From Halorubrum sodomense (lineage in GTDB: Archaea > Halobacteriota > Halobacteria > Halobacteriales > Haloferacaceae): DNA of 64,000 nucleotides. The translations under genes were made by a program, and so were the position numbers. Location of the stretch: positions 1 to 64,000 of the forward strand of contig NZ_FOYN01000002.1 of assembly GCF_900111935.1 (NCBI RefSeq), written 5' to 3'. The notes under the pieces are model-generated. The model had not been told where the DNA came from. It worked only from the letters and a program-made list of their open reading frames with translations, and made no database searches. This document shows, one piece after another, positions 48,028-60,786 of the stretch. Position 1 is the stretch's first letter. Every line of letters starts with the position of its first letter.

Positions 48028-49668
48028 TTATCGGGACACCGTGACGTCGGTCATCTGGAGCTCCGTCGAGATCGGGTGCGCTTCGAAGCCCTCCACGACG
48101 TTGCGGACGCCGTAGGAGTTGTTCAGGTTGTACGCCGGGAGGTGGACGCGACCTTCGAGCAGCGTCGTCGTCGCGTCGATGTAGAGCTGCCGACGCTCCT
48201 CGCGGTCGGCGGACTCGCGGGCCTGCGTCAGCTTCTGGGAGGCCTCGTCGTACTCGTGGAACGTCCCGTTGGTGACGCCGTTCGTCTCCTGGCTCAGCAG
48301 GTTGTACGCGAACGTGTCCGGGTCCGGGCTACCCGACCAACCGAGCGTGTACATGTTGTAGTCCTCCTCGTTGCCGGTGAGGTACGCGTCGAGGAACGTC
48401 CCCCAGTCGAGGCGCTGGACCTGGACGTTTTCGAAGCCGGCGTTCTGGAGCCCGTCGCCGATCGAGATACCGATCTGCTCGCGCTTGTTGTCCGGCGGCA
48501 CGATGATCCGCCAGTCGTAGTCCATCGGGACTCCGGCCTCCTCGAACAGCGCCTGCGCCTCCTCGAGGTTCTGATCGTGGGGGATACTCGACCACTCGTC
48601 GACGGGGAAGTTCCACTCCTCGCTGATCGAGGAGGGGTACGGGCTGTACTGCCGCACGCCGGCCGGCGTGACGAAGCTCTCGACCGCCTGGTCCATCGAG
48701 ACGCAGTAGTCGACCGCCTCCCGAACGAGCGGGTCGGACGTCGGCCCTTCGGCGCAGTTGAACGCGAGGTAGAAGTATCCGACGCCGGGCTCCTCGGTGA
48801 TGCTGGCGCTCTGGTTGCTCTGGACCGTCTCGTACAGCTGCGGGGGGATGCTCTCGATGATGTCGACGTTCCCCGTCTCCAGTTCGGTGACCCGCGTCGT
48901 CTGCTCCACGATCGGCTGGAACTCGATCCCGCCGAGCTCCGGGAGGCTCTCGCTGTCCCAGTAGTCGTCCCACCGCTCCAGCGTCGCGAAGTTCTCGGGC
49001 TCCCACTCGACGAGCTGGAACGGCCCCGAGGTGACCGGGTCCTGGTTGTACGCGTCGACGTCCTCCTGACGTACGGAGGCGTTGACGACGTTCCGCGCCA
49101 TGGCGATCGTGAACGCGCCGTACGGATACTTGAGATCGAACTGCGCGGTGGTCTCGTCGATCGCCTCCGCGGTGTCGATCATGTTCACCTCGGAGGCGTT
49201 CGCGGTCTCTTCTTCGATCGGCGCCATCATCGTGTGGACGACGTCTTCCGCGGTGACCGGATCGCCGTTCTGGAACTCGGCGTCCTCGCGGATCGGGACG
49301 ATGTACCGCGTCCCGTCGCGCTCGACCGTCGGCATGTCCGCGGCGATCTTCGGCTCCAGGTTGACGCCGTCGCCGTACTCGTAGAGGCCGTCGAATATCC
49401 GCCCGGCGATCTGCGCGGACGGCACGTCGTTCATGATGACCGGGTCCATGTCGAGCGGGCCCTTCGCTTGCGCGAAGTACAGCGTCGAGGGGGTTCCGCC
49501 GTCGCCGCCGCCGCCGTCGGAGCCGTTGCCGCCGCTGGAACCGTTGCCGCCGCCGGAGCCGTTGCCGTCCCCGCCGCCGGTACACCCGGCGAGCAGGAGG
49601 GAGGTGCCGGCCGCCCCGCCGGCGAGGACCTTTCGTCGCGAAATGCGTTGTGTGGGTTGTCGACGCAT
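48028..49668 (-). CDS. dppA: Dipeptide/oligopeptide ABC transporter substrate-binding lipoprotein
   Basis: 546 residues. TAT lipoprotein signal: RRKVLAGGAAG with lipobox Cys at residue 29 (LAGC), then a Gly/Ser/Asn linker to about 60. SBP_bac_5 domain: N-lobe GRIFDGLYEYGDG, middle FQNGDPVTAEDVVHT, GPFQLVEWE, and C-lobe LEEAQALFEEAGV in the canonical order. ATG at 49668 matches BoxA at 49690-49698. Binds peptides outside the membrane for DppBCDF. Confidence 0.93.
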   Translation of the reverse strand: MRRQPTQRISRRKVLAGGAAGTSLLLAGCTGGGDGNGSGGGNGSSGGNGSDGGGGDGGTPSTLYFAQAKGPLDMDPVIMNDVPSAQIAGRIFDGLYEYGDGVNLEPKIAADMPTVERDGTRYIVPIREDAEFQNGDPVTAEDVVHTMMAPIEEETANASEVNMIDTAEAIDETTAQFDLKYPYGAFTIAMARNVVNASVRQEDVDAYNQDPVTSGPFQLVEWEPENFATLERWDDYWDSESLPELGGIEFQPIVEQTTRVTELETGNVDIIESIPPQLYETVQSNQSASITEEPGVGYFYLAFNCAEGPTSDPLVREAVDYCVSMDQAVESFVTPAGVRQYSPYPSSISEEWNFPVDEWSSIPHDQNLEEAQALFEEAGVPMDYDWRIIVPPDNKREQIGISIGDGLQNAGFENVQVQRLDWGTFLDAYLTGNEEDYNMYTLGWSGSPDPDTFAYNLLSQETNGVTNGTFHEYDEASQKLTQARESADREERRQLYIDATTTLLEGRVHLPAYNLNNSYGVRNVVEGFEAHPISTELQMTDVTVSR

Positions 49669-49689
49669 ACAGGCAACTCTTGTTTTCAC

Positions 49690-49698
49690 TAGATAAGC
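49690..49698 (-). promoter_or_regulatory. BoxA for the dpp operon
   Basis: Minus-strand GCTTATCTA, 22-30 nt before the dppA ATG. Confidence 0.55.
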
Positions 49699-49851
49699 TT
49701 TTGGGTCGGCGTGTCCGTACGGTCGGATCTGTTCGCTGTGTGCCCTCTTCTCAGTACGAATCCGCGCTACTACCGCCGAATCGGCGGAAACACTCGAATA
49801 CGCCGGCGCTCGACGGTGGAACGGCATTCTCGCACGCGAGGGTGACAGCGA

Positions 49852-49916
49852 CGTCTCGCGTCTCTCCGGGGAACCGTCTCGCGTCTCTCCGGGGGACCGT
49901 CTCGCGTCTCCGTTCG
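49852..49916 (+). repeat. 23-bp tandem repeat upstream of dppA
   Basis: CGTCTCGCGTCTCTCCGGGGAAC and its near-identical copy CGTCTCGCGTCTCTCCGGGGGAC (49852-49874, 49875-49897) plus a partial third CGTCTCGCGTCTCCGTTCG. Sits in the 292-bp gap between the GTPase gene (ends 49961) and dppA promoter. Confidence 0.8.
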
Positions 49917-49960
49917 AGAGCTGCCACGGCGCGGTCGCCCCCGGCGTCACTCGACCGGAG

Positions 49961-57181: not shown

Positions 57182-57478
57182 ATGGACGACCGGTTCGAGC
57201 GCGTCATCCGCCGGCAGCTCCGGAAGGCGGGCAAGCAGTTCGAGGAGGCCAGACGCGCCTACGCCGAGGGTCGCGACGACCCCGACGGCGACGCGGCCGC
57301 CCGGTTCGACCTCCCGACCGACGACTCCGGGGCGGCCCGCGTCGTCTGCCGACGCCACGCGGAGCGCCGGACCATTCCGGTCGACGCCGAGGGGCGCCCC
57401 GCCTGCTTCGAGTCGGGCCACCCCGACTGCGAGGGGTGCGCCGAGGACGTCCGCGACGGCGTCGTCGAGACGTGGTGA
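57182..57478 (+). CDS. Small Cys/His haloarchaeal protein (DUF7091-like)
   Basis: 98 residues. Helical N-terminus MDDRFERVIRRQLRKAGKQFEEARRAYAEG; C-terminal half holds C56-R-R-H, C75, C82, C85, C-x-x-C pattern suggesting one zinc site. Matches a haloarchaeal DUF from memory (DUF7091). Unknown function. Confidence 0.72.
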   Translation: MDDRFERVIRRQLRKAGKQFEEARRAYAEGRDDPDGDAAARFDLPTDDSGAARVVCRRHAERRTIPVDAEGRPACFESGHPDCEGCAEDVRDGVVETW

Positions 57479-57916: not shown

Positions 57917-59923
57917 ATGACCCGACCGATCAGTCGACGGACGGCGCTCGCCGGGCTCGGCCTCGCGGCCGCCAGCGCCGGCTGTCTCGGGCGGGCGGAG
58001 AACATCGCCGGCCGCGACCCCCACTCGCAGCTGACCCTCGAGATCAACACCACGCCCGCCGACGACGACCCGAGCGGGATCCGGATCGCGAGACAGCTCG
58101 AAGAACACCTGACCGCGGTCGGTATCGACGTCCAACTCAACGCCGTCGGACAGACCGAGCTCTGGCGCAAGGTGCTGATAAACCAGGACTTCGACATCTA
58201 CGTCGGGCAGTTCGTGGAGACTGAACCCTTCGACCCGGACGCGCTGTACGGCCTGACGCACTCGAAGTTCATCGCGGAGTCCGGCTGGCAGAACCCCTTC
58301 GGATTCACGGAGATATCGGTCGACGACCTCTTGGAACGACAGCGCCGGGTCACCGGCACCGAGCGATCGGACGTCGTCGGCTCGCTTCAGGAGACGCTGT
58401 GCCGGCTCCAGCCCTTCTCCGTCGTCGCGTTCCCCGACGCGCTCACCGCCGTCCGAGAGGACCGGTTCGACGGGTGGACGGAGGACCGCCAGCCGCTCTC
58501 CGTCGCCGGGCTCCTCGAACTCGACGCCGTCGCCTCTGACGACGACTCCGGGACCGTCGCCTCTGACGGCGACTCCGGGACCGTCTCCTCTGACGGCGAC
58601 TCCGGGACCGTCGCCTCTGACGGCGACTCCGGGACTGTCTCCTCCGACGACGACTCCGGGACCACCGGTTCGGCCGACGGCAGCGCGACGACGGCCGCCG
58701 CGGGCACCGGATCCGAGGGCGAAGACGTCCTCCGGCTCGTGACGACCGACGACCGCATCACGGAGAACTGGAACCCGATCGCCGCGGAGTACCGGAAGCA
58801 CGGGACGTTCACCGGACTGCTGTACGATCCCCTCGTCCGCGCGGACGGCGAGGCGGTCATCCCGTGGTTGGCGGCCGACTGGGAGCGGATCGACCACGAC
58901 ACCCTCGACGTCTCGCTCCGCGACGCCCGGTGGCACGACGGCGAGCCCGTGACGGCGAGCGACGTCGCGTTCACCTACCGGTTCCTCCGGGACACGTCGC
59001 TGGGAAACGTCGAGACCCCGGTGCCGACCCCTCGCTTCCGCGGCCGGAGTTCCATCGTCGAAGACGAGCGGGTCCTCGACGACGCGACGGTGCGGCTCAC
59101 CGTGGCCGACGTCAACGAGACGGTCGCCGCCCGCGCGCTCCAGGTACCGATCCTCCCGGAACACGTCTGGTCCGCCAGGACAGACGCGGCGACGATCGCC
59201 GGCTTCGAGCTCGACTTCGAGACGACCGAGGCGGTGGTCTCGAACAACCCCGACCCGGTCGGGAGCGGCCCGCTGCGCTTCGTCGCGGCGACCGCCGGGG
59301 AATCGGTCGTCTTCGAGCGGAACCCCGACCACTTCCTCGTGCGGCCGGCGCCCGAAACCGACCCGGAGGCGTCCGGAGAGACGGGATCCGGAGCGGCGAC
59401 GGACCCCAGGGCGGGGATCCCGTCCCAGTACCACGGCAAGCCCGCCTTCGATCGGCTCCGGATCGAGGTGTTGCCCTCGGACATCTCGGCCGTCGAGTCG
59501 GTCGCCGACGGCGTCGCGGACGCGACCGCAGCGAACCTCGGTCCGGCGTCGGTCCCTCGGATCGGACGCTCGCCGGACACCCGGCTCGTGAGCGGTCGGT
59601 CGGCGGCGTTCTATCACGTCGGCTACAACGTGCGACGGAGCCCGCTGTCGAACCCCCGATTCCGGGCGGTGATCGCGCGGCTGATCGACAAGTCCGCCGT
59701 CGTCGACGACGCCTTCGACGGGTACGCACGGGCGGCGGCGTCTCCGCTCGCGGCGACGCCGGACGCGGTCCCGGCGTCGCTGGCGTGGACCGACGGGACC
59801 GACCCCGTTTACCCGTTCTTCGACGACGAGGGCTCGCTCGACGTCGCGGCCGCCCGGGAGGCGTTTCGAGACGCCGGATACCGGTTCGACGACGAAGGCC
59901 GGCTGCTCTCGCGGGGACAATGA
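57917..59923 (+). CDS. Solute-binding lipoprotein (SBP_bac_5) with permuted lobes
   Basis: 668 residues. TAT lipoprotein signal with lipobox Cys at residue 23. Residues about 36-195 (QLTLEINTTPADDD, IRIARQLEEHLTAVGIDV, FDIYVGQF) correspond to the part that normally ends an SBP_bac_5 protein. Residues 205-249 are five 9-residue repeats (V-A/S-S-D-D/G-D-S-G-T). Residues about 265-668 begin LRLVTTDDRITENWNPI like a usual N-lobe and end EAFRDAGYRFDDEGRLLSRGQ, just where the canonical protein would enter the first block. No ABC permease nearby; its stop overlaps the PAP2 start (ATGA). Confidence 0.88.
   Translation: MTRPISRRTALAGLGLAAASAGCLGRAENIAGRDPHSQLTLEINTTPADDDPSGIRIARQLEEHLTAVGIDVQLNAVGQTELWRKVLINQDFDIYVGQFVETEPFDPDALYGLTHSKFIAESGWQNPFGFTEISVDDLLERQRRVTGTERSDVVGSLQETLCRLQPFSVVAFPDALTAVREDRFDGWTEDRQPLSVAGLLELDAVASDDDSGTVASDGDSGTVSSDGDSGTVASDGDSGTVSSDDDSGTTGSADGSATTAAAGTGSEGEDVLRLVTTDDRITENWNPIAAEYRKHGTFTGLLYDPLVRADGEAVIPWLAADWERIDHDTLDVSLRDARWHDGEPVTASDVAFTYRFLRDTSLGNVETPVPTPRFRGRSSIVEDERVLDDATVRLTVADVNETVAARALQVPILPEHVWSARTDAATIAGFELDFETTEAVVSNNPDPVGSGPLRFVAATAGESVVFERNPDHFLVRPAPETDPEASGETGSGAATDPRAGIPSQYHGKPAFDRLRIEVLPSDISAVESVADGVADATAANLGPASVPRIGRSPDTRLVSGRSAAFYHVGYNVRRSPLSNPRFRAVIARLIDKSAVVDDAFDGYARAAASPLAATPDAVPASLAWTDGTDPVYPFFDDEGSLDVAAAREAFRDAGYRFDDEGRLLSRGQ
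58529..58663 (+). repeat. 27-bp in-frame tandem repeat, five units, in binding protein linker
   Basis: Each unit encodes V-A/S-S-D-D/G-D-S-G-T. Codon choice is nearly identical between units, so the DNA repeat is recent and could change copy number. Confidence 0.9.
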
Positions 59924-60786
59924 CGCCGTTCCTGTCGCTGCTCGCGTCGATCGTGGCGTGGGTCGGGACGATGCTGGCGGTCGCGAGCGTCGCGGTGATC
60001 GGTCCGGCTCGGCTCCGAGACGCGTGGACCGGGCTCCGAGCGCGCCTGTGGGACGCCCGACGGGCCGCCGGGACCCTGGGTGCGGTGCTGCTCGCCAGCG
60101 CGATCGGTCGGAGCTCGCTACAGGCGGTCTCGGAGCTGTTCGGTCTCCAGGCGACGGCGCTCATCTACGGGCTGGAGGGCGGGTTCGTCGCGTGGGTCCA
60201 GTCGACGTTCGCTACCCCCGTGTTGACCGCGTACTTCTCGTGGGTGTACGTGTACGGCTACGCGTTCCTGCTCGCGTTCCCGGTGGTCGCGTACCTCGCG
60301 CTCCCGCGGACGACGACGCTCAGGCGCGTCCTCGTCGCGTACGCGCTCAACTACGCGATCGGACTGGCGCTGTACACGGCGGTGTTCGCCTACGGGCCGC
60401 GGAACGTGATGCCCGACATGGTGACGCCGCTGCTTTTCACCAACCGACCCGACGTGATGCTGCTCGCGAGCGAGGTGAACGTGAACACGAACGTCTTCCC
60501 GTCGCTCCACACTTCGCTTTCGGTCACCGTCGGGACGTTCGCGGTGCTGACCCGCGAGGAGTACCCGCGGTGGACGCCGGTCGCGGTGTGGCTCTCGCTG
60601 TCGGTCGTCGTCGCGACGATGTACCTCGGAATCCACTGGCTCACCGACGTCGTCGCCGGCTTCGCGCTCGCGTTCGGCTGCGTCGCGCTCGCGCACCGGT
60701 TCGTCGACCCGCGGAACGACGCCGTCGAACCGAGCGGCGACGCGAGCGGGGAGCGTCCCGGGTCCGAGGCCGCCGCGGACGCCTGA
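59920..60786 (+). CDS. PAP2 superfamily membrane phosphatase/transferase (AUR1/IPC-synthase-like)
   Basis: 288 residues, about six helices. Motifs: FTNRPD, PSLHTS (PSLH at 194-197) and GIHWLTDVV with H239 and D243, the C2/C3 catalytic pair of PAP2 enzymes. PSLH instead of PSGH and the long N-terminal helices resemble inositol-phosphorylceramide-synthase-type members acting on lipid head groups. Start ATGA-overlaps the permuted binding protein, so both are made together. Substrate unknown. Confidence 0.88.
   Translation: MTPFLSLLASIVAWVGTMLAVASVAVIGPARLRDAWTGLRARLWDARRAAGTLGAVLLASAIGRSSLQAVSELFGLQATALIYGLEGGFVAWVQSTFATPVLTAYFSWVYVYGYAFLLAFPVVAYLALPRTTTLRRVLVAYALNYAIGLALYTAVFAYGPRNVMPDMVTPLLFTNRPDVMLLASEVNVNTNVFPSLHTSLSVTVGTFAVLTREEYPRWTPVAVWLSLSVVVATMYLGIHWLTDVVAGFALAFGCVALAHRFVDPRNDAVEPSGDASGERPGSEAAADA

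Follow-up and report, generated by a model that had tools for sequence, protein, structure and literature searches.

The window, as the whole 64,000-nucleotide stretch of Halorubrum sodomense DNA analysed here is called, carries at positions 57917-59923 of the forward strand an open reading frame of 668 aa. Its segments and its downstream neighbour are as follows.

57917..59923 (+): circularly permuted SBP_bac_5 (cluster C type) lipoprotein, 668 aa, recognized by PF00496, profile alignment and the AlphaFold model
57917..58018 (+): twin-arginine-type lipoprotein signal ISRRTALAGLGLAAASAGC, with Cys23, plus a short tether (residues 1-34)
58019..58525 (+): residues 35-203, the usual C-terminal third of an SBP_5 protein (PF00496 positions 288-363)
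58526..58720 (+): acidic low-complexity linker, residues 204-268, leading from the natural C-terminus to the natural N-terminus
58721..59920 (+): residues 269-668, the usual N-terminal two thirds of an SBP_5 protein
59920..60786 (+): PAP2_3 (PF14378) membrane phosphatase/phosphotransferase-like gene, the conserved downstream neighbour

Segment order and gene neighbourhood

The encoded protein carries an RR motif together with SAGC, a lipobox-like sequence whose last residue is number 23, and RR plus a lipobox-like cysteine were present in all 50 family members checked. Its score against PF00496 is 161.5 bits (curated cut-off 32.4), the best stretch pairing residues 314-659 with profile positions about 2-283. 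A search of the genome to which the window belongs placed positions 288-363 on residues ~41-116 (58037-58264), upstream of the remaining profile match. Coverage of the profile is consecutive but swapped, with 288-363 first and about 2-283 second, rather than in the regular N-to-C order, making the protein a permuted variant and not a regular family member. The N-terminal segment by itself matches positions 289-363 (E 1.2e-5), and PF00496 is likewise matched by 52 of 54 family N-terminal segments taken on their own.

The first-pass annotation had proposed a circular permutation in which residues 36-195 are the displaced last segment, followed by a repeat linker, with the protein ending where that segment usually begins. 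This reading is borne out and the boundaries are refined to 35-203: aligned separately, both parts fall within PF00496/SBP_5, consecutive and swapped, and residues 269-668 stop at the usual start of the C-terminal segment. The protein at 48028-49950, which had been offered for comparison, does have the regular order, residues 198-556 covering profile positions 2-365. The anticipated repeat is also present in the 65-aa linker of the window protein, as a 27-bp tandem repeat of 5.1 copies (58527-58663, SDGDSGTV-type). The length of this tandem-repeat linker differs strongly from species to species. Across the family the linker measures 1-73 residues (median 5; 15 or fewer in 63 of 93 rows), and since it falls to a single residue in relatives, the natural ends must be near each other.

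The start of the PAP2_3 gene overlaps the stop of the SBP gene (ATGA at 59920). A same-strand PAP2 gene lies within 400 bases downstream of 84 of the 93 permuted family genes with enough downstream sequence, often with a 4-base overlap, and seven of the nine exceptions, as read from their coordinates, are second copies just 3' of a PAP2 gene. An SBP-PAP2-SBP arrangement, in which one PAP2 gene sits between two permuted SBP genes, was seen in L073, L084, L086, L087, L103, L107 and L110. Several Halobacteriales families retain the SBP-PAP2 pair; HIT, DUF7091, DsbA-like and ThiD genes, the remaining neighbours, are common mainly within and near Halorubrum. In the window a DUF7091 protein (PF23367, E 1e-39) is encoded at 57182-57478, upstream of the SBP gene, and this protein is conserved nearby in Halorubrum. 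No Dpp/Opp-type permease or ATPase genes adjoin the SBP gene in the window, and near the 78 family loci there was no permease gene and a single ATPase-like match (L085).

Predicted fold and conservation of the family

A non-redundant set drawn from the loci fetched by protein formed, together with the window protein, 54 rows, which were aligned over their full length (A1) or over the first segment alone (A2). The A2 profile corresponds to residues ~370-500 of solved SBP_5 chains (5u4o, E 1.1e-7; AppA 1xoc, 3e-6; DppA 1dpp, 1e-3; also 4qfk) and matched LpqW (2grv, E 1.5e-5) over part of the segment only. With A1, one chain, 5isu, was covered by two pieces of the profile: positions 228-550 lie on its residues 31-323, and positions 54-191 on its residues 348-480. 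Two swapped pieces on one PDB chain are the signature of a circular permutation and not of fusion to a foreign domain, in agreement with the swapped coverage of PF00496. The candidate assignment of residues 36-195 to another domain family is excluded by the matches of this segment to PF00496 and to SBP_5 chains.

AlphaFold2 run on A1 returned one full-length model (mean pLDDT 84.6, pTM 0.82), with pLDDT mostly 90-98 in both segments; it is low in the signal and linker, as well as in a stretch around 480-490. The first segment modelled alone reached pLDDT 76 and pTM 0.52, as expected of a part of one fold. When the full model was compared with known structures by Foldseek, every listed match was of the SBP_5 type (NikZ, AppA and others, E from 4.7e-14). 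The best of them aligned ~410-420 columns with a target TM near 0.5, coverage being limited because the method is sequential and cannot follow the displaced third of the fold. Owing to the poor quality of its isolated model, the first segment alone gave only weak matches, chiefly to SBP_5 proteins (best E 0.013). The assignment to the cluster C binding-protein fold rests on prediction, made without permutation-aware superposition. Residues 35-203 and 269-668 are predicted to pack on each other, in line with the earlier proposal of one binding protein built from both parts, and the permuted protein almost certainly forms a single fold.

The swapped order was found in about 90 genes across Halobacteriales. 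Orthologues of the same order, looked for in Halorubrum, occur in many other genomes of that genus and also in Halobellus, Halorussus, Natrinema, Natronomonas, Haloarcula and others; in 197 genomes sampled from the phylum, strong family matches (E up to 1e-60) appeared only within Halobacteriales, in four family groups. S116, G123 and Q125-N126-P127 are invariant in the family and D106-P107-D108 is near-invariant, a conservation pattern that looks like a retained pocket or interface. Between the permuted cousins of the window family and L152, the nearest protein of regular order, identity is only ~25-30%, the permutation being too old for a single-gene source of both segments to be seen. An assembly error or inversion is excluded, since the order is shared by genes in many separately assembled genomes. 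That two separate fused domains, or such an inversion, mimic a permutation is accordingly extremely improbable: the 65-aa low-complexity linker between the parts would suit a fusion, but relatives manage with one residue and ~90 genes keep the order, and both parts are consecutive stretches of one PDB chain, the first of which models poorly alone.

Recurrence of permutation among haloarchaeal SBP_5 proteins

Natural circular permutation is usually regarded as rare, a single event per family. Haloarchaeal SBP_5 proteins were sorted by segment order with a profile derived from 27 SBP_5 proteins of regular order. In the coordinates of this profile, cuts lie near 388/395 (the window family and several others), 360/367 (Halorubrum family B; L180/L181) and 497/491 (family D). 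Placed on the profile, the cuts fall into three zones, two of them neighbouring and one near the C-terminus.

The genome of the window holds a second permuted SBP_5 gene (L118:8663-10588 (-); G000:C8 ~748665-750587), which represents a separate permutation and heads a complete permease/permease/ATPase/ATPase operon of the Dpp/Opp type. This family B protein aligns in swapped order with L120, residues 311-640 pairing with 74-404 at 65.6% identity and residues 75-307 with 408-640 at 64.0%. Comparable pairs of proteins are the permuted L183 and the regular L182 (72.7% identity in both parts), L174 of family D and the regular L220 (60.5 and 55.9%), L131 and L133 (46 and 41%), and L180 and L170 (45 and 45%).

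Searches with tblastn pieces found family B permuted in 19 Halorubrum genomes and regular in a further set of the same genus. In a genome of the latter kind (L193), the permeases and ATPases of the operon share 86-91% identity with their counterparts in the permuted operon, and the cut is the chief difference between permuted and regular B proteins. The regular-order B orthologue at L193:6217-7290 (G013) appears broken, with an open frame of 357 aa and stops beyond it, and its operon partners match at length. In one genus, 10 out of 11 genomes carry family D in permuted form. In this family (L188:5577-7226 (+), L210-L219) only the last ~50 residues are shifted to the front, and the regular L220, from the same genus, is 60% identical. 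Outside the window family, nearly every permuted gene examined stands at the head of an intact ABC operon (L186 showed no ABC parts), indicating that permutation itself is compatible with transport.

For the phylogenetic analysis, permuted proteins were first restored to the regular order. On the resulting tree of 78 rows the order changes 8 times, and branches with good support require at least 7 of these changes; 9 changes were needed on a quick tree with 103 rows. A single origin of all permuted haloarchaeal SBP_5 proteins was rejected (one clade, p-AU 8e-52), the clade tested having been defined by the trait, permuted order, and not taken from the tree. At least six permuted groups can be told apart: the window clade (with L158/L169/L179 and L176-L178), B, C (L129-L132), D, E (L183, L193) and F (L180, L181). 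The regular L182:5614-7608 (-) is nested between the permuted L183:5068-7056 (+) and L193:2877-4859 (-), at 60-73% identity; its position inside group E may reflect a reversal of the permutation, a double event or an error in the tree. Group C is no clean clade. In view of both, six is a count of lineages and not of exact events. As judged from these trees, permutation is recurrent among haloarchaeal SBP_5 proteins, in at least six lineages.

In 12 haloarchaeal genomes at least 16 of 71 SBP_5 genes, counted by eye and spread over 10 of the genomes, are permuted. In a sister class, all 33 SBP_5 matches were single and in regular order (Fisher p 0.002 for 16/71 against 0/33, relatedness ignored). 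The same holds, less certainly, for the SBP_5 proteins among the matches listed from a second class. Export of folded proteins by the Tat route could explain why haloarchaea tolerate permutation; an RR/KR motif stands near the start of all 58 regular-order haloarchaeal SBP_5 proteins checked, so within haloarchaea Tat export does not set permuted members apart from regular ones. Seven junctions inspected by eye held no remnant of a signal peptide in the joining linker, which would be a trace of tandem duplication. Taken together, haloarchaea may be a hot spot of repeated SBP_5 permutation, perhaps allowed by folded Tat export, in which the window lineage left ABC transport for a two-component envelope module with PAP2_3; on this broader reading we are evenly divided.

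Proposed role and comparison with known systems

The linkage to the PAP2 gene is probably the best clue to function, and its conservation suggests that the window SBP works in partnership with the PAP2 protein. The sequence shows that the new ends of the chain lie immediately ahead of the opening strand of the C-terminal segment and that the natural ends are joined by the linker. In the mechanism that we propose, the folded protein would be exported by the Tat route and anchored to lipid at Cys23, leaving a two-lobed binding protein tethered from its old C-terminal segment instead of its natural N-terminus. It would no longer serve an ABC importer, and the co-translated PAP2_3 membrane enzyme would be its partner, as the conserved linkage suggests. 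The most likely role would be to bind and hand over, or to sense, a polar or phosphorylated headgroup or a glycan at the outer membrane face, an action that may tentatively be likened to the steering of lipoglycan synthesis by LpqW in mycobacteria. As a whole, the account of a permuted SBP_5 lipoprotein partnered with PAP2 appears to us somewhat more probable than its opposite.

The permuted SBP could instead be an orphan importer subunit that feeds peptides or similar solutes to a distant ABC permease, its PAP2 neighbour being incidental. Other permuted SBP_5 lineages of haloarchaea do head complete ABC operons, and its own genome has several SBP_5 proteins and Dpp-type permeases; against this, the PAP2 linkage extends over several Halobacteriales families, overlapping frames are common and a permease accompanies none of the 78 loci, which makes an orphan subunit unlikely. 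The absence of an ABC partner would suit a degenerate SBP that has become a structural or regulatory envelope protein without a small-molecule ligand, and the aspartate that binds the peptide amino end in DppA and OppA is not conserved at the corresponding position of the family sequences inspected. The strong conservation within the family, for example of S116, G123, Q125-N126-P127 and D106-P107-D108, speaks against degeneration, which we consider quite improbable. If the partnership with PAP2 is real, the PAP2-linked family is a binding protein recruited out of transport. Annotation that gives the PF00496 match alone conceals both the permutation and the PAP2 linkage.

In the open-licence literature we found neither a description of permuted SBP_5/cluster C proteins or of their recurrence nor anything relevant on PAP2 with Haloferax lipoproteins. 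A permuted binding lipoprotein is already known (Tp0684, below), and it is the cluster C permutation and its recurrence for which we found no earlier report. Permuted and regular relatives coexist, some at 60-73% identity, and the Halorubrum forms stand in matching operons, so that how permutation came about, where a cut is tolerated and what folded (Tat) export contributes can be tested directly.

The window protein shares its family profile, predicted fold and lipoprotein export with DppA, OppA, AppA and NikA/NikZ (SBP_bac_5/cluster C), and differs from them in being cut at the loop before the C-terminal segment and in having a PAP2 gene and no adjacent ABC genes. Tp0684 (TpMglB-2) of Treponema pallidum is a circularly permuted glucose-binding protein, and 'Type Ic / Cluster Bc' is the label suggested for it by the authors of that study (PMC4990184). 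Both are natural circular permutations of an ABC-type binding lipoprotein. Tp0684, however, has a Type I/cluster B fold and a sugar ligand, whereas all matches of the window protein are to SBP_5/cluster C and none place it in Type I/cluster B; its cut site is another one and its host an archaeon. LpqW of mycobacteria acts at the PIM/LM/LAM branch point of glycolipid synthesis (PMC10928101). As an SBP_5-related lipoprotein tied to envelope glycolipid synthesis, LpqW (2grv) may offer an analogy in function, although it was matched over part of the segment and the PAP2 linkage is a feature of the window family.
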